A stretch of DNA of 7,941 nucleotides from an uncultured bacterium (GTDB lineage Bacteria > Bacillota > Clostridia > Lachnospirales > Lachnospiraceae), in contig CAMTZV010000047.1 in NCBI GenBank assembly GCA_947086625.1, positions 1 to 7,941 on the forward strand. Direction: 5' to 3'. The notes beneath the pieces were generated by a model. The model saw only the letters and a program-made list of their open reading frames with translations. It did no database searches and was not told where the DNA came from. Below are positions 821-7,297 of the stretch, in pieces (positions within the stretch are counted from its first letter, which is position 1; every line of letters starts with the position of its first letter). A program made the translations under genes and the position numbers.

Positions 821-2317
821 ATGCAGGAATTTGTTAAAATTAACGCCGCCGACAATGTGGCGGTTGCCCTGCGCGATTACGCGAAGGGTGAGACGCTCGT
901 TGTGGACGGGAATGCCCTGACGCTGGCGGAGGATATCGCCAGAGGGCACAAGTTTACGCTGGCTGCGCTGGATGCCGGGGCGGCGGTCATCAAATACGGC
1001 TTTCCGATCGGGCACACGAAGGAGGCGGTGGGGAAGGGCTGTCACATCCACGTCCACAATTTAAAAACCGGGCTCGGGGACGACCTGAGCTACGAGTACC
1101 GCCCGACGAACGTAGAAAACCGCGCGTGTACCCTGCCCGAAGCGGACCGCTTCTTTATGGGCTATGAGCGAAGCGACGGGCGCGCGGGCATCCGCAACGA
1201 GCTGTGGGTCATCCCGACGGTCGGCTGCGTCAACTCGGTTGCAGGTGCGATCGCGGCGCGCTGTCAGGATCTGGTATGTGAAAACATCGAGGCGGTTGTC
1301 TCCTATGCGCACCCTTACGGCTGCTCGCAGATGGGGGACGATCAGGAGAACACGCGAAAGGCGCTTGCAAGCCTGATGAAGCATCCGAACGCGGGCGGCG
1401 TGCTCGTGCTCGGGCTTGGCTGTGAGAATTCGAATATCGACGTGTTAAAGCCGTATCTCGGGGACTACGACGAGAGCCGCGTCCGTTTTCTGGTGAGCCA
1501 GGACGTGGAGGACGAGGTAGCGGAGGGCGAGCGCCTTCTGCGCGAGCTTGCGGAAAATGCCGCGAAGGTAAAGCGCACGAAGGTTCCCGTGGAAAAGCTG
1601 GTGATCGGTATGAAGTGCGGCGGCTCCGACGGGCTCTCCGGCATCACGGCAAACCCGGTGGTGGGAGAGCTTTCCGACCTCGTCACGAGCGCGGGCGGCA
1701 GCACGATTTTAACCGAGGTACCGGAGATGTTCGGTGCGGAGACGATTCTCATGGATCGCTGTATCGATGAAACGGTGTTTGAGAAGACCGTGCATCTCAT
1801 CAACGATTTTAAGGATTATTTCAGGCGCCACGACCAGACGATCTACGAAAACCCGTCGCCCGGAAACAAGAAGGGCGGGATTTCCACGCTCGAGGACAAG
1901 GCGCTCGGCTGCACGCAGAAGTCCGGCTCCTCGAAGGTGGTCGACGTGCTCGCCTACGCCGAGCCGCTAAAGCGCGCGGGGTTAAACCTGCTCAGCGCGC
2001 CGGGCAATGATCTCGTGGCGAGCACCGCGCTTGCGGTGAGCGGGGCGCAGATCGTGCTCTTTACGACCGGAAGGGGGACGCCGTTTGCGAGCGCGGTGCC
2101 GACCGTCAAGGTGTCGTCGAACTCGCAGCTCGCGGGCAAAAAAAAGGGATGGATCGACTTTGATGCCGGACGGCTCTTAGAGGATGGCATGACACTCGAG
2201 CAGCTCGGGCTGGAATTTTACGAGTACGTGCTCGCCGTGGCAAACGGCGAGAAGGTGAAGACCGAGGTGGCAGGCTACCGCGACCTCGCGATCTTCAAGC
2301 AGGGTGTAACGCTGTAA
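821..2317 (+). CDS. uxaA: altronate dehydratase
   Basis: UxaA is a cytoplasmic, iron-dependent dehydratase that converts D-altronate to 2-keto-3-deoxy-D-gluconate, the last step specific to galacturonate breakdown. The 498-residue product is close to the E. coli length (about 495). It has an SAF-like N-terminal domain (about residues 8-80, with ARGHKF and VIKYGFPIG). The catalytic UxaA core follows: GYERSDGRAGIRNELWVIPTVGC (114-136), HPYGCSQMGDD (164-174), LGLGCEN (197-203), GMKCGGSDGLSGITANP (263-279), GCTQKSGSSK (363-372) and TTGRGTPF (415-422). Conserved cysteines at 136, 168, 201, 266 and 364 are candidate iron or active-site ligands. The start is ATG 821, 2 bp after the uxaB stop and 10 nt after the AAAGAGG at 804-810. 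The N-terminus aligns with known UxaA from its first residues. Translational coupling to uxaB is likely, so the uxaB frameshift could lower its expression. Confidence 0.96.
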   Translation: MQEFVKINAADNVAVALRDYAKGETLVVDGNALTLAEDIARGHKFTLAALDAGAAVIKYGFPIGHTKEAVGKGCHIHVHNLKTGLGDDLSYEYRPTNVENRACTLPEADRFFMGYERSDGRAGIRNELWVIPTVGCVNSVAGAIAARCQDLVCENIEAVVSYAHPYGCSQMGDDQENTRKALASLMKHPNAGGVLVLGLGCENSNIDVLKPYLGDYDESRVRFLVSQDVEDEVAEGERLLRELAENAAKVKRTKVPVEKLVIGMKCGGSDGLSGITANPVVGELSDLVTSAGGSTILTEVPEMFGAETILMDRCIDETVFEKTVHLINDFKDYFRRHDQTIYENPSPGNKKGGISTLEDKALGCTQKSGSSKVVDVLAYAEPLKRAGLNLLSAPGNDLVASTALAVSGAQIVLFTTGRGTPFASAVPTVKVSSNSQLAGKKKGWIDFDAGRLLEDGMTLEQLGLEFYEYVLAVANGEKVKTEVAGYRDLAIFKQGVTL

Positions 2318-2386
2318 CGTTCAGAAGTTTACGCTTTGCCGCTGCAAGCCGGCGCGCAGAGGCATTGCGAGTATATTATATGAGTT

Positions 2387-2393
2387 AGGAGGG
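2387..2393 (+). promoter_or_regulatory. strong ribosome binding site of uxaC
   Basis: AGGAGGG lies 8 nt before the ATG at 2402 and fixes the uxaC start. The 84-bp gap between uxaA and uxaC also holds an AT-rich patch (TATATTATA, 2372-2380) that could be a -10 element, but I find no matching -35 at 16-18 bp. An internal promoter is therefore not supported. Confidence 0.85.
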
Positions 2394-2401
2394 TTTTTCA
2401 T

Positions 2402-3823
2402 ATGAAAGCATTTATGGACAAGGATTTTTTACTGGATACCGACACCGCGAAAAAGCTCTACGCGAACTACGCGGACATGACAAAGATCCCGGTGCTCGAC
2501 TACCACTGCCATATCAATCCGCAGGAGATCTGGGAGGATCGCCAGTTTGAGAACATCGCGCAGGTATGGTTGGAGGGCGACCACTACAAGTGGCGTCAGA
2601 TGCGCACAAACGGCGTGGACGAGAAGTACATCACGGGCGACGCGACCGACCGCGAGAAATTCCAGAAATGGGCGGAGACGATGCCCAAGCTCATCGGAAA
2701 CCCGCTCTACCACTGGTCGCATCTGGAGCTGCGCTATTACTTCGGCTTCCAGGGCAATTTAAACGGCGATACGGCAGAGGAGGTCTGGAATCTGTGCAAC
2801 GAGAAGCTGCAGAGTAAGGACTTTACGGTGCGCAATCTGATCCGGAAATCAAATGTACAGTTAATTTGTACCACGGACGATCCGGTCGACAGCCTCGAGT
2901 ACCACCAGAAAATCAAGGCGGACGAGACGTTTGAGGTGCAGGTGCTGCCCGCATGGCGTCCCGACAAGGCGATGAACATCGAGAAGCCGGATTTTTCGGA
3001 CTACATCAAAAAGCTCTCCGACGCTTCCGGCATTGCCGTGACTGATTTTGCCTCCCTGAAGGATGCGTTAAACAACCGTCTGGACTTCTTCGCGGAGAAT
3101 GGCTGCTGTGTCAGTGACCATGCGCTTGAGTATGTGATGCATGTGCCCGCGGATGACGCACAGATCGACGCGATCTTAAAGAAAGCGCTGGCCGGGGAAA
3201 CGACGAGCGTGCTCGAGAATTTGCAGTACAAGACCGCGTTCATGCTGGCGATGGCGAAGCAGTATGCGAAGCGCGGCTGGGTGATGCAGCTCCACTACGG
3301 CTGCAAGCGCGACAACAACGCGCTTATGTACGAGAAGCTCGGTCCCGACACCGGCTTTGACTGCATCAACAACTATGCGCCCTCCGCACAGCTCGCGGAT
3401 TTCTTAAATGCGCTCTCCGCGACGGACGAGGTACCGAAAACGATCATCTACTCGCTGAACCCCAACGACGACGAGGCGATCGGCACGATCATCGGCTGCT
3501 TCCAGGGCGGCGGCGTCAGGAATAAGATTCAGCAGGGCAGTGCGTGGTGGTTCAACGATCACTACACCGGAATGACAAAGCAGATGAAGTCGCTCGCAAA
3601 CCTTTCCGTGCTCGGAAACTTTGTCGGAATGCTGACGGATTCCCGCTCCTTCCTCTCCTACACAAGACACGATTATTTCCGCAGGATTCTCTGCCAGATG
3701 GTCGGCGCATGGGTGGAAAACGGCGAGTATCCTGACGACGAGAAGCTGCTCGGCGAGATCGTAAAGGGAATCTCGTTCAACAATGCGGTGGAATACTTCG
3801 GATTTGATCTGAAAACGGTGTAA
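2402..3823 (+). CDS. uxaC: glucuronate/galacturonate isomerase (uronate isomerase)
   Basis: UxaC isomerises D-galacturonate to D-tagaturonate and D-glucuronate to D-fructuronate, the entry step for hexuronates in the cytoplasm. It is a divergent member of the amidohydrolase superfamily. The 473-residue length matches the family (E. coli about 470). Visible motifs are FLLDT near the N-terminus, DYHCHINP (33-40, the metal-site HxH at His35 and His37), GDHYKWRQMRTNG (59-71), NPLYHWSHLELR, TTDDPVDSLEYH, LPAWRPDK, RGWVMQLHYG, NPNDDEAIGTIIGCFQGG, GSAWWFNDHYTGM and LTDSRSFLSYTRHDYFRRILCQ (Asp413 in the DSRS segment). All key segments are intact. The start has a strong Shine-Dalgarno sequence. Together with uxaB and uxaA it covers the path from galacturonate to 2-keto-3-deoxygluconate, although uxaB is damaged here. 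Confidence 0.97.
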   Translation: MKAFMDKDFLLDTDTAKKLYANYADMTKIPVLDYHCHINPQEIWEDRQFENIAQVWLEGDHYKWRQMRTNGVDEKYITGDATDREKFQKWAETMPKLIGNPLYHWSHLELRYYFGFQGNLNGDTAEEVWNLCNEKLQSKDFTVRNLIRKSNVQLICTTDDPVDSLEYHQKIKADETFEVQVLPAWRPDKAMNIEKPDFSDYIKKLSDASGIAVTDFASLKDALNNRLDFFAENGCCVSDHALEYVMHVPADDAQIDAILKKALAGETTSVLENLQYKTAFMLAMAKQYAKRGWVMQLHYGCKRDNNALMYEKLGPDTGFDCINNYAPSAQLADFLNALSATDEVPKTIIYSLNPNDDEAIGTIIGCFQGGGVRNKIQQGSAWWFNDHYTGMTKQMKSLANLSVLGNFVGMLTDSRSFLSYTRHDYFRRILCQMVGAWVENGEYPDDEKLLGEIVKGISFNNAVEYFGFDLKTV

Positions 3824-3826
3824 TAC

Positions 3827-4306
3827 ATGGAATTTAAGTATGAGTATAAGGTGGTACCGTCGGATCTGTGGCAGGTGCAGATGTATTATGCGTATTCGTC
3901 GTACACGGCGATTATCAATGTGATCTGCATTGTTTCATCCATCGCGCTGCTCTATTCACTCTGGGGGACGGCGCCTTGGTGGCTTCGGCTTTTGCTTTTG
4001 TTCTTTTTATCGCTGTTTACGGTCATCCAGCCGCTTGCCATGTATTTCCGGGCCAAAAAGACACTCGGGGATATCGACGATACGCTGCGGCTGACATTCA
4101 GCGAGCAGGGCATCCAGGTAGAGGTGAAGGATCAGAAGGAGTTTAAAAACTGGGCCGAGGTGCAGGGCATCGTGCTAAAGCCCACGCTGGTGACGATCTA
4201 CACGGACAAAAGCCATGGATACATTCTGACGGACCGGATACTGAAGGACACAAAAAAACAATTTCGGGCTTTTATAAAGGCAAGGCGGTCGGCGCGGGCC
4301 AGATGA
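3827..4306 (+). CDS. YcxB-like two-helix membrane protein of unknown function
   Basis: This is a 159-residue protein with two adjacent hydrophobic segments (about residues 24-46 and 52-74) followed by a soluble, presumably cytoplasmic C-terminal part. The C-terminal pattern LTFSEQGIQVEV...FKNWAEVQGIVLKPTLVTIYTDKSHGYILTDRIL (about 88-139) resembles the YcxB-like C-terminal domain: beta strands with a conserved W-S/A-x-I/V core and a final strand ending in a basic or acidic turn. The function of that family is not known to me. The end is rich in Arg and Ala (KARRSARAR). It starts only 3 nt after the uxaC stop and has no clear Shine-Dalgarno sequence, so it is probably coupled to uxaC translation and is the last gene of the uronate operon. 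Nothing in it points to a transporter or enzyme of uronate metabolism. The gene call is firm; the family assignment is from pattern memory. Confidence 0.8.
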   Translation: MEFKYEYKVVPSDLWQVQMYYAYSSYTAIINVICIVSSIALLYSLWGTAPWWLRLLLLFFLSLFTVIQPLAMYFRAKKTLGDIDDTLRLTFSEQGIQVEVKDQKEFKNWAEVQGIVLKPTLVTIYTDKSHGYILTDRILKDTKKQFRAFIKARRSARAR

Positions 4307-4313
4307 GATGCGG

Positions 4314-4337
4314 ACGCTGTCCATGCGTGGACGGCGT
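4314..4337 (+). other. hairpin 1 of the lipoprotein gene leader
   Basis: ACGCTGTCCA pairs with TGGACGGCGT around a 4-nt loop (TGCG). This gives a 10-bp stem with one T-G wobble at 4318/4333. It is followed by GACTGCTT, not a T-run, so it is not a standard intrinsic terminator. It lies 7 nt after the stop codon of the YcxB-like gene. Confidence 0.6.
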
Positions 4338-4351
4338 GACTGCTTCCGGTG

Positions 4352-4365
4352 TGCGCGGATGCGCA
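4352..4365 (+). other. hairpin 2 of the lipoprotein gene leader
   Basis: TGCGC pairs with GCGCA around a GGAT tetraloop. This is a short GC-rich stem between hairpin 1 and the terminator-like hairpin 3. Taken alone a 5-bp stem could arise by chance; its position between two stronger stems is why it is listed. Confidence 0.35.
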
Positions 4366-4373
4366 GAGAAGTG

Positions 4374-4413
4374 TACCGCCACGGGCTGTTTATGCGTCCT
4401 GTGGCGGTATTTT
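4374..4413 (+). terminator. intrinsic-terminator-like hairpin between the uronate operon and the lipoprotein gene
   Basis: TACCGCCAC (4374-4382) pairs perfectly with GTGGCGGTA (4401-4409). The stem extends inward by GGG/TCCT pairing (4383-4385 with 4398-4400, one G-T), giving about 12 bp, and is followed by TTTT (4410-4413). It may end the uxaB-uxaA-uxaC-ycxB-like transcript. The T-run is short, and the hairpin ends only a few bases before the AAAGG ribosome binding site (4418-4422) of the next gene. An attenuator or a structured leader is therefore a fair alternative. I see no convincing sigma-A promoter between this hairpin and the start codon. Confidence 0.6.
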
Positions 4414-4430
4414 GGATAAAGGCGATGATG

Positions 4431-5471
4431 ATGAAAAAGAGATATTCGGTTGTGATTGTTTTGGCGCTGCTTATTTTGCTGAGCGGCTGTGCGGCTTTGC
4501 AGGAGCAGCAGGCTGTGGAGGAGACAAAGTTTGCCAGCGAGACGTTTCGGGAGCAGGTGGATAACGGCAGGCCCAATATTTACCTGATTACAAAGGGCTA
4601 CGGCAGCGATTACTGGGATACGCTGCGCCAGGGCGCGGCCAACGCGGCGGAGGAGTACGACTGCAATCTCTACGTCGCCGGAACGCAGACGGAGTCGCAC
4701 TTTGAAGTTCTGGCAGAGCTGATGCAGGACGCGCTCGACCGGGGTGCGGATGCGATCATCCTGTCACCGGCGGACACGCCGGAGATCATGCAGATGACGA
4801 AAAAAGTGAAGATGGCGGATGTTCCGCTGGTCTTTGTGGACACGATTTTAAACACGGAGGATTTCGATGCGTGCTTTGCCACGGATAATATGGAGGCGGG
4901 GCGGCTGGCGGCGCGCGAGACGATCCGGCTTTTGGAGCGCATGGGAAAGCAGCCGGAGGAGGCCGTGTCTGTGGGGATTGATATCGGCTCCGCACAGTCG
5001 CAGACGATTCTGGAGCGTCTGGCGGGCTTTCAGGAATACTGGAGCAGCCACACGCCGGGCACGTGGAAGGTTGTCGACGATATCAAAATTAACGACGGCG
5101 ATATGGAGACGGCGGAGCGCCAGTGCTATGAGTTCATGGATGGCTGTCGGGATCTTGCGGCGCTGGTGGGCTTAAACAACGGCTCTACCGTGGGCCTTGC
5201 CAGAGGACTTTTGAAGAAAAAGCGTACCGACCTCGTGCTGGTCGGCTTCGACTATTCACAGGAGATAAAGGAGCTTATCGAGGAGGGGACATACCTGACG
5301 GCGAGCATCGTCCAGCGGCAGTATGATATGGGATATGAGGGCGTTTTTGCGGCGGTAAAGCTGCTTGGCGGCGGCACGGTTCCCTATCGGTATGTGGATA
5401 CCGGCGTGCAGCAGGTGACAGGCGACAATGTGAACAGTCCTTACATACAGGAAATTTTGAACGGGAAATGA
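4431..5471 (+). CDS. sugar-binding-type periplasmic binding lipoprotein
   Basis: This is a 346-residue exported lipoprotein. KKR is followed by a hydrophobic stretch and the lipobox LLSGC, with the lipidated cysteine at residue 20. Mature residues about 48-335 look like a periplasmic-binding-protein type 1 fold of the ribose/galactose-binding class (Peripla_BP_4-like). Strand and helix patterns include NIYLITKGYGSDYWDTLRQGA (49-69), GADAIILSPAD (105-115), VPLVFVDT (131-138), ATDNMEAGRLAA (150-161), LVGLNNGSTVGLARGL (245-260), LVGFDYS (270-276) and QRQYDMGYEGV (295-305). The ligand is unknown. The start was set at ATG 4431, 8 nt after AAAGG (4418-4422); ATG 4425 and 4428 are in frame but sit too close. 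An upstream in-frame ATG at 4308 would add an Arg-rich stretch that breaks the signal peptide. No ABC permease or ATPase is adjacent. The next gene, 37 bp on, is a sensor diguanylate cyclase, so a signalling partner role is likely but inferred. Confidence 0.85.
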   Translation: MKKRYSVVIVLALLILLSGCAALQEQQAVEETKFASETFREQVDNGRPNIYLITKGYGSDYWDTLRQGAANAAEEYDCNLYVAGTQTESHFEVLAELMQDALDRGADAIILSPADTPEIMQMTKKVKMADVPLVFVDTILNTEDFDACFATDNMEAGRLAARETIRLLERMGKQPEEAVSVGIDIGSAQSQTILERLAGFQEYWSSHTPGTWKVVDDIKINDGDMETAERQCYEFMDGCRDLAALVGLNNGSTVGLARGLLKKKRTDLVLVGFDYSQEIKELIEEGTYLTASIVQRQYDMGYEGVFAAVKLLGGGTVPYRYVDTGVQQVTGDNVNSPYIQEILNGK

Positions 5472-5508: not shown

Positions 5509-6969
5509 ATGGCAGACAGAAAGAAAAACGACAGGCGGACATATGTGGTCGCTCTGCTTGCCTATCTTGTGATCTGTGTGCTCATCCTGATCGTCGGGGT
5601 GCTTGACGTAAGGGATACGGTGAAAAACTACAACATGAGCCAGGCACGGCTTGTGAGCACGCTGCTCGTCGAGAATGTCAACGAGGCGCTGGACGATGTC
5701 GTCAGCCAGATCGAGCAGGTCAGCCGCGCGATCGCGGGCGGAAACGAGCGAGACTCCGATGTGATCTACGAGGAGCTTCTGGCATACAGATCGCGCTCGG
5801 ATATTTGCAGCATCGGGTACGTTGACGTGGACATGAATCTGTATGGGGAGGAAGGCGACTATCAGGATTTTATCAAGCACGGGTTTTTAAAGGATATGAC
5901 GGAGACCGCGCAGACGATGGTGACGGATCCGTACCGCTCGAAGATTTCCGCGGACAATGTGATTACCGTGTTTGTGCCGATCTACAAAAAGGGTGCGCGC
6001 ACCGGGACGGTCTACGCGAATCTGACGCTGCAGCGGCTGCAGGAGTTTGCAAAAATGGGGAATTTTAACGAGGGGGCCAATATTTACCTCATCGACTGCG
6101 ATTCTCTGAACTGCATCGCCTGCATGGACAGCGAGCTGGCGTCGGCGGGAACGTGGAACAATCTGGCGCTGCGGCAGGCGGGCATGGAGTTCGATACCGA
6201 TCACGATTATCAGTTTTACATCTCGAAAATGAAAAACGGCGTGAAGGGCGATATGGTCAGCTACCGCATCAACGGGACGGCGTATTCGCAGGGATATGAG
6301 CGCATCGACAAGATGCAGGGCTGGTATCTGGCGGTGGAGCTTGCCAACCATTCGCTCTCGGATTCGTTCGACACGTTTCAGAGCAAGCTGGTCGCTTATG
6401 CGGTCATGCTGCTTTTTGTGACGTTTGTGGTCGGCATCTTTCTGATCCTTGTGGAGAAGCTGCAGAAGAAAAATTTTGAGAAGCTTTCCAGCACGGACGC
6501 CATGACCGGGCTTTATAATAAGAAGACGTTTACCTCACTCGTGGAGGAGCGTCTGCGGGACAAAAAGGAGCCGGGCGTGCTCATCTTTGTGGACGTGGAC
6601 AATTTTAAAAATTACAACGACAGCTACGGGCATTTAAACGGTGACGCGGTGTTAAAGAAGTTTGCCAGAGAACTGCAGGCGGAGTTCGCAAGCCGCGGCA
6701 TCATCGGGCGCTACGGCGGCGATGAGTTTATCGTCTATCTGGAACGCGTTTCGGACAAGGGGCCTGTGGAGGTGTCCATGCAGCGCTTACAGACGGCGCT
6801 TTCGTCTATGGAGCTTGAGGGCTTCGGAACCGTTGCATTGAGCTTTAGCTCCGGCGGCGTGCGTTTCCCGCAGGACGGCACGGGTTTTAAGGAGCTGTGT
6901 AAGATGGCGGACGAGACGCTCTACCGCGTCAAGGAGGGCGGCAAGGGCAGGTTTTACTGGTATCAATAA
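5509..6969 (+). CDS. membrane diguanylate cyclase with extracytoplasmic Cache-like sensor
   Basis: The predicted activity is synthesis of cyclic di-GMP from two GTP. The 486-residue protein has a first membrane helix at about 13-33. An extracytoplasmic region follows at about 34-292, of Cache type judged by layout and segments such as TDPYRS...ITVFVPIYKKGARTGTVYANL (139-172). The second membrane helix is at about 294-316. The GGDEF domain (about 325-485) carries STDAMTGLYNK (328-338), FVDVDNFKNYNDSYGHLNGD (360-379, with Asp362 as a metal ligand and Asn370 and Asp379 at guanine positions) and RYGGDEF (401-407). The signature is intact, so the domain is likely active. The RxxD inhibitory site expected nine residues before GGDEF is absent (ASRG at 394-397). 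The start ATG 5509 follows a strong GGGAGGAG (5495-5502). It lies 37 bp after the binding lipoprotein gene with no terminator between, so the two are likely co-transcribed and may form one sensor. Confidence 0.92.
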   Translation: MADRKKNDRRTYVVALLAYLVICVLILIVGVLDVRDTVKNYNMSQARLVSTLLVENVNEALDDVVSQIEQVSRAIAGGNERDSDVIYEELLAYRSRSDICSIGYVDVDMNLYGEEGDYQDFIKHGFLKDMTETAQTMVTDPYRSKISADNVITVFVPIYKKGARTGTVYANLTLQRLQEFAKMGNFNEGANIYLIDCDSLNCIACMDSELASAGTWNNLALRQAGMEFDTDHDYQFYISKMKNGVKGDMVSYRINGTAYSQGYERIDKMQGWYLAVELANHSLSDSFDTFQSKLVAYAVMLLFVTFVVGIFLILVEKLQKKNFEKLSSTDAMTGLYNKKTFTSLVEERLRDKKEPGVLIFVDVDNFKNYNDSYGHLNGDAVLKKFARELQAEFASRGIIGRYGGDEFIVYLERVSDKGPVEVSMQRLQTALSSMELEGFGTVALSFSSGGVRFPQDGTGFKELCKMADETLYRVKEGGKGRFYWYQ

Positions 6970-6977
6970 AAAAGCGG

Positions 6978-7006
6978 TCATAACCCCTTAAAAATACTCA
7001 TATATT
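6978..7006 (+). promoter_or_regulatory. sigma-E-type sporulation promoter of spoIIID
   Basis: The -35-like element TCATAAC (6978-6984) and the -10-like element CATATATT (6999-7006) are separated by exactly 14 bp. The known sigma-E pattern is roughly KMATAWW, 14 bp, CATACAMT, so the -35 matches six of seven positions and the -10 six of eight. Sigma-E is the early mother-cell sigma factor and drives spoIIID in Bacillus subtilis. Transcription would start at about 7012-7014. The -35 begins 8 nt after the stop codon of the diguanylate cyclase gene. Confidence 0.7.
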
Positions 7007-7029
7007 GAAGCAAAGTATTTTTAAGGGGT
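6983..7029 (+). terminator. perfect 16-bp inverted repeat: terminator-like hairpin overlapping the spoIIID ribosome binding site
   Basis: ACCCCTTAAAAATACT (6983-6998) and AGTATTTTTAAGGGGT (7014-7029) are exact reverse complements around a 15-nt loop. The RNA is followed by CTTCTCTTT, a weak pyrimidine-rich tail. It may terminate transcripts from the diguanylate cyclase gene. The right arm contains AAGGGG (7023-7028), the only plausible Shine-Dalgarno sequence for spoIIID, and the loop begins with the -10 element of the promoter. A role in blocking spoIIID translation from read-through RNA is therefore at least as likely as simple termination. The repeat is seen directly; its function is inferred. 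Confidence 0.8.
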
Positions 7030-7036
7030 CTTCTCT

Positions 7037-7297
7037 TTGAAAGAGTATATTGAAAAACGGGCGATCGATATTGCGAATTATATCATCGAGCATAATACCA
7101 CGGTGCGTCAGACCGCAAAGCAGTTCGGGATCTCGAAATCGACGGTACATAAGGATGTCGCGGAACGTCTGGTGCTCATCAATCCCACGCTGGCGTCGGA
7201 CGTCCGCAAGGTTTTGGACATGAACAAGTCCGAGCGGCACATCCGGGGCGGGCTGGCGACAAAGGATAAATATTTGCGCGAAAAAAGTTTGAAATAG
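7037..7297 (+). CDS. spoIIID: stage III sporulation transcriptional regulator SpoIIID
   Basis: SpoIIID is a small DNA-binding protein of the mother cell during endospore formation that activates or represses many sigma-E-dependent genes and helps the switch to sigma-K. The 86-residue product has a helix-turn-helix at about 22-41 (TVRQTAKQFGISKSTVHKDV) and the conserved basic tail segment KSERHIRGGLATKDKY (64-79), both hallmarks of the family. It is slightly shorter than the B. subtilis protein (93 residues) at the C-terminus. The start is TTG 7037: the residues that follow (KEYIEKRAI) align with the N-terminus of known SpoIIID, and AAGGGG (7023-7028) is 8 nt upstream. The rare start codon and the ribosome binding site held in an inverted repeat suggest tight translational control. 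It is likely transcribed by sigma-E from the promoter just upstream. Confidence 0.95.
   Translation: MKEYIEKRAIDIANYIIEHNTTVRQTAKQFGISKSTVHKDVAERLVLINPTLASDVRKVLDMNKSERHIRGGLATKDKYLREKSLK

Follow-up and report, generated by a model that had tools for sequence, protein, structure and literature searches.

A hairpin over the predicted sigma-E promoter of Lachnospiraceae spoIIID and its probable role in silencing read-through RNA

Read-through locks in known systems and the spoIIID locus

In phage T4, the lysozyme gene e has two late promoters close upstream of its ribosome binding site (RBS), and longer RNA arriving from upstream folds over the Shine-Dalgarno (SD) sequence, with a reported effect of ~100-fold; soc, 49 and I-TevI are further cases of the same logic (PMC3014915). 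A preliminary description of the present DNA had likened spoIIID to gene e. For sigG of Bacillus subtilis, PMC5942855 describes a hairpin of 20+ bp that is proposed to keep read-through RNA from spoIIGA-sigE from being translated and that cannot arise on transcripts started at sigG's own promoter; it also reports that sigG translation falls 2- to 4-fold through an RBS hairpin of −6.2 kcal/mol and is nearly blocked when this hairpin is strengthened. B. subtilis spoIIID itself depends on an upstream frame, usd (PMC4474612).

The window analyzed here, the whole 7,941-nt stretch of DNA, ends with a GGDEF diguanylate cyclase gene (open reading frame at 5509–6969; PF00990, 119 bits), then spoIIID (7037–7297; TTG start at 7037–7039, 86 aa), and then the first part of a gene for a MATE transporter; the first two lie on the + strand, as do all features of the intervening gap given below. 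In profile searches the spoIIID product scores 127 bits against TIGR02844, above the curated cut-off of 111.5, and 138.3 bits against PF12116 (cut-off 27). As a regulator of the mother cell, SpoIIID should be off during growth. The Lachnospiraceae count as major spore formers of the gut, and experimental genetics in them is scarce. The GGDEF gene is the presumed source of read-through RNA; a simple terminator scan of the + strand from 6969 to 7037 called no terminator-like site. Ahead of the GGDEF gene, the window encodes a dehydratase of the galactarate/altronate group, the glucuronate isomerase UxaC, a YcxB-like protein and a periplasmic sugar-binding protein (821–5471).

Thirteen nucleotides past the GGDEF stop codon begins an inverted repeat of two 16-nt arms (6983–6998 and 7014–7029) that are 100% complementary and stand 15 nt apart. 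The left arm is the exact 16-nt spacer between the core of a predicted sigma-E −35 element, TCATA (6978–6982), and a predicted −10 element, CATATATT (6999–7006), which forms the first bases of the loop. The right arm would begin the 5′ leader and carries AAGGGG (7023–7028), the SD, with eight bases between it and the TTG start codon. A U-rich tail follows the stem and runs into that codon (7030–7038). The preliminary description had reported the perfect repeat at these positions, the −10 element opening its loop and the SD within its right arm, and we find all three in the sequence.

We infer the sigma-E promoter from its motif, ATA-N16-CATATATT. The B. subtilis sigma-E −10 consensus is KCATANANTN (PMC3416734), and TCATATATTG matches every fixed position of it; the −35 fits at 5 of 8 positions, and the two elements lie at the proper spacing. 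The spoIIID promoter of Clostridioides difficile, a mapped sigma-E promoter, reads ATA-N16-CATATATA and thus shares the layout predicted here (PMC3789822). From the distance to the −10, transcription would start at about 7012–7014. Among 190 related leaders, found with a −10 matrix trained on the very leaders to which it was applied, 142 have an exact ATA-N16 ahead of the −10, 35 have a similar triplet 16 nt away and 13 show something else. A TGTAAAA block is conserved after the −10 (bases 8–14 counted from its first base; each position in 168–190 of 190), partly by construction since the block had gone into the training of the search matrix, and is missing from the window's genus. In several relatives the −10 itself lies inside the stem.

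When the whole window was shuffled 200 times, crudely and in blocks of two, a perfect inverted repeat of at least 12 bp with a gap ≤40 arose in 7 of the shuffles, against the 16 bp of the real one. RNA spanning 6970–7060 folds at −22.5 kcal/mol (z = −3.7), a value reached by none of 200 shuffles; the predicted sigma-E RNA (7014–7070) folds at −8.8 kcal/mol, about as its shuffled versions do (z = −0.1). We think it probable that this hairpin silences spoIIID on RNA reading in from upstream, chiefly by hiding the SD and, in part of the family, also by ending transcription. Read-through RNA, if made, would contain both arms, fold and hide the SD; RNA started at the predicted promoter would begin in the loop and, without the left arm, remain less closed; and in some relatives transcription would probably end in addition at the U-rich tail. 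On this model spoIIID would likely be made only from its own sporulation switch, here and in many relatives.

Covariation of the arms across Lachnospiraceae

A family search matched spoIIID in 232 of 397 genomes at 1e-15; loci were taken from these matching genomes (30 automatically and 100 chosen among the matches listed), and further named loci were the best 80 of 580, so composed that the sample favours close relatives. This gave 199 distinct family leaders, of which 190 were kept and 9 dropped when filtered by their distance to the −10, their start codon and the length of upstream sequence, with SD and start codon chosen by script. A first run used 129 leaders, 6 of 135 rows having been dropped beforehand. 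Because the register of the stem slips between genera, an alignment-free swap test was preferred over a covariance model and structure prediction.

Within the window's genus, spoIIID was matched in 7 of 10 genomes, and all seven leaders retain the arms, perfect or imperfect, with duplex energies of −13.2 to −27.4 kcal/mol. In the alignment of these seven leaders, both sides have changed in 6 of 16 pairs, and 88.9% of cells are paired compared with 33–57% in slid controls. Two sisters, L002 and L006, have readable upstream frames, and in both of them another gene precedes spoIIID. A UxaC-like frame lies much closer to spoIIID in L002 than in the window; the neighbourhood has thus been reshuffled while the hairpin was retained.

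Across the 190 leaders, own arms pair at a mean of −14.43 kcal/mol versus −10.19 kcal/mol for arms swapped between genomes (z = −20.8), and none of 20,000 permutations reaches the own-arm value. The signal climbs at the start of the spacer, and a control block 40–62 nt upstream of the −10 gives no pairing signal in the same leaders (z = +1.3). The 129-leader run had the same outcome, with z = −15.6 when the window's genus was left out. Chance complementarity, or the base composition of a C-rich spacer and a G-rich SD, would account for the fact that swapped arms also pair somewhat (−10.2 kcal/mol), but the permutation result and the double-sided changes in the genus leave this reading with practically no probability, and as a sole cause it is refuted by the swap permutations.

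The pattern of mismatches indicates the molecule on which pairing acts. With Watson-Crick-only scoring of the stem, own arms show 86 G-U and 21 A-C mismatches and swapped arms 167 and 122 (Fisher p = 3e-5 for the G-U excess); such an excess of G-U over A-C is what pairing in sense-strand RNA would leave, and is not expected of a palindrome in DNA. A palindrome bound by a protein, e.g., SpoIIID itself or another promoter regulator, would fit the overlap of the repeat with the promoter and the conserved A-rich block after the −10, and the SpoIIID consensus is matched near the −10 in 34 of 190 leaders. The window has no match to that consensus at 6901–7060, however, and arm sequences diverge widely between genera with complementarity retained. 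This covariation of own versus swapped arms and the G-U bias weaken the palindrome as main cause, and we regard it as very unlikely. Judged from the leader sequences, complementarity between the arms is under selection at the RNA level across Lachnospiraceae relatives. The comparison that the preliminary description had called for, an alignment of the gap before spoIIID across the family with a search for compensatory changes, therefore came out in its favour: the arms co-vary, and the gap is conserved in much of the family.

The hairpin is not universal. When the left arm was taken from the nearest relative, own arms paired better in 120 and worse in 61 of the 182 cases with differing arms, so that a third of these swaps pair better. 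Weak hairpins occur in Mediterraneibacter massiliensis, Frisingicoccus caecimuris and Lactonifactor longoviformis, and in the close sister L002 opening the SD costs 4.7 kcal/mol. Outside the family, 3 of 28 usable class-level leaders (L170, L177 and L192) fold at −13 kcal/mol or below.

Similar hairpins can be seen by eye in other families of the order. In two leaders from one of these (L149 and L158), the arm pairs with the SD plus the bases up to the TTG, and the stem reaches the start codon. Seven leaders (L017, L020, L215, L217, L219, L220 and L248) have a G-rich SD unusually distant from the ATG and a second stem-loop between the two, as if a hairpin bridged SD and start codon.

The longest upstream frame is directed away from spoIIID in 51 of 185 leaders, where read-through from that gene is not expected. 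Mean arm pairing is −10.3 kcal/mol in these and −12.4 kcal/mol in leaders with a co-directional frame; the tests on upstream-gene direction (p = 0.028) and on distance (p = 0.013), which use this longest-frame heuristic, give weak support. The same walk applied to Lachnospiraceae sigG (n = 29) and spoVT (n = 28) reached peak z values of −3.3 and −3.0, compared with −6.7 for 27 random spoIIID leaders. Relative to these two genes, the covariation of spacer and SD thus appears largely specific to spoIIID; the idea that it is a general property of sporulation genes is weakened, the signals of sigG and spoVT being far weaker than that of spoIIID and not zero.

Several genomes have an interrupted spoIIID, its two parts separated near codon 42 (STVHKDVT). 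The split loci are L334/L335 (G696), L336/L337 (G132), L338/L339 (G559), L344/L345 (G630), L340, L341 and L342, as well as L343/L007 (G001) in the window's genus. The halves in G696 lie ~64.7 kb apart on one contig and one strand, and all four scanned frames of inserted DNA encode large serine recombinases, as in skin-type sporulation intervening elements. A literature search that included the available part of PMC5595907 found no spoIIID case of such an element.

Predicted access to the ribosome binding site and termination

Opening the SD costs a median of 8.6 kcal/mol on read-through RNA and 2.7 kcal/mol on the predicted sigma-E RNA across the 190 leaders; with foreign left arms the cost is 5.1 kcal/mol. 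A cost of at least 8 kcal/mol is seen in 101 of 190 leaders on read-through RNA and in none of the 190 on sigma-E RNA. The mean probability that the SD is unpaired is 0.16 on the former versus 0.49 on the latter, and it falls below 0.2 on read-through RNA in 122 of 190 leaders. For the window, the opening costs are 11.6 and 5.7 kcal/mol and the unpaired probabilities 0.0005 and 0.010, respectively. The SD thus lies in an arm of a stable predicted read-through hairpin whose pairing is kept by selection, two of the features by which a lock of the T4 e and B. subtilis sigG type was judged here.

Two predictions of the preliminary description need qualification. That read-through RNA folds over the SD is favoured by the covariation of the arms and by an SD far more covered than on sigma-E RNA; premature termination of that RNA, which the description left aside, is also likely. 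That sigma-E RNA, lacking the left arm, is open for translation holds in so far as it is predicted to be more open than read-through RNA; at 5.7 kcal/mol, the window's own sigma-E RNA would be partly closed.

This residual structure raises the reading that the hairpin works on the sigma-E transcript, whose leader would be tuned by its own weak hairpin (compare the RBS hairpin of B. subtilis sigG), with the left arm idle. The window's sigma-E RNA, at −8.8 kcal/mol with its SD partly hidden, is compatible with it. The left arm nonetheless co-varies with the right although sigma-E RNA would lack it, shuffled versions of the window's sigma-E RNA fold about as well, and 13 of 190 leaders cost at least 6 kcal/mol on this RNA; we give the reading very little credence.

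Silencing of read-through RNA remains our preferred reading, and the tail of the stem suggests a second component to it. From the strongest to the weakest pairing quartile, the 8 nt after the SD contain on average 5.71, 4.87, 4.10 and 3.83 T, and T count is related to pairing energy (rho = −0.41, p = 6.5e-9; 190 leaders); the 28 class-level leaders have 3.43. The tail is on the sense side: of 131 stems, 84 are followed by at least 5 T, and 14 are preceded by at least 5 A. Strong hairpins are less often accompanied by an ordinary terminator of its own ahead of the promoter (2 of 49, versus 8 of 40 weak ones; p = 0.038). A strict terminator score, with block shuffles as controls, was passed by 10 of 190 leaders versus 0 of 380 shuffles; the window fails it (−35), which disfavours a strict intrinsic terminator there. 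The richer U-tracts of stronger hairpins make partial termination of read-through likely in part of the family. Termination needs the U-tail and SD hiding does not; with few leaders passing the strict score, SD hiding would be general and termination added in part.

In the family, 129 of 190 spoIIID leaders have a TTG start codon; with starts chosen by script, none of 29 sigG leaders and 1 of 28 spoVT leaders do. A TTG start would lengthen the U-tract.

The same observations could be taken to mean that the hairpin serves mainly to end transcription of the upstream gene, as an intrinsic terminator crowded into the promoter of spoIIID, the cover on the SD being a by-product of the G-run at the stem base. 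The sense-side U-tract that increases with stem strength, the rarity of separate upstream terminators beside strong hairpins and the strict passes absent from shuffles all speak for it. Against it, 180 of 190 leaders including the window fail the strict score (with its crude shuffle), the 15-nt loop is long for a terminator, the simple scan made no call at the site, and a terminator does not require pairing of the SD, yet the SD is closed in most leaders. We consider this explanation unlikely. Silencing chiefly by SD hiding may be one face of a three-in-one element, in which the spacer doubles as an arm of a lock formed on read-through RNA only and the hairpin both hides the SD and terminates through a U-tract running into the TTG, making a family-wide one-way valve. 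We put this forward tentatively, as possible rather than probable; if true, the spoIIID checkpoint would obey its own sigma factor only, and the gene could adjoin any neighbour.

Comparison with known systems

The hairpin resembles an intrinsic terminator in its G+C-rich stem base and in a sense-strand U-rich tail graded with stem strength, and differs from one in its long, promoter-holding loop and in the strict score noted above. Control of B. subtilis spoIIID by usd, reportedly described by Decatur in 1997, is alike in making translation conditional on upstream RNA context. It differs in that B. subtilis needs usd to be translated and has its sigma-E promoter upstream of usd, whereas the promoter predicted in Lachnospiraceae lies within the hairpin and would give a leader of about 23–25 nt; there is no usd-type small frame between the predicted sigma-E promoter and spoIIID, such a leader having no room for one.

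B. subtilis sigG shares with spoIIID the position of a sporulation regulator behind another gene and a proposed hairpin on read-through RNA, and it is unlike the present case in being another gene, under another sigma factor, in Bacilli (PMC5942855). T4 gene e is alike in hiding the SD on a longer RNA and in having its promoters in the 5′ strand, so that the shorter RNA lacks that strand and is translated, which for spoIIID is a prediction. Gene e relies on phage late promoters, and the available part of its account mentions no U-tract gradient (PMC3014915); spoIIID has a predicted sporulation promoter, an arm that is exactly the spacer, and covariation across a bacterial family.

The preliminary description knew of no such report for spoIIID. 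We found no description of an SD lock for this gene in the listed titles and abstract openings of the open-licence PMC literature; sigG nevertheless provides a precedent within sporulation. A spacer bound to complementarity with the RBS would explain why the spacer is unusual and why the gap ahead of the start codon is rich in U; it may also explain why that codon is so often TTG. The spoIIID hairpin would be a clean case in which promoter choice decides translation, and the covariation of spacer and SD offers a handle for finding other insulated developmental genes. The logic is already known from T4 gene e and has been put forward for B. subtilis sigG. Within the reach of our literature searches, what is new is the gene concerned, the covariation across the family, and the way in which promoter spacer, SD lock and U-tract coincide exactly.
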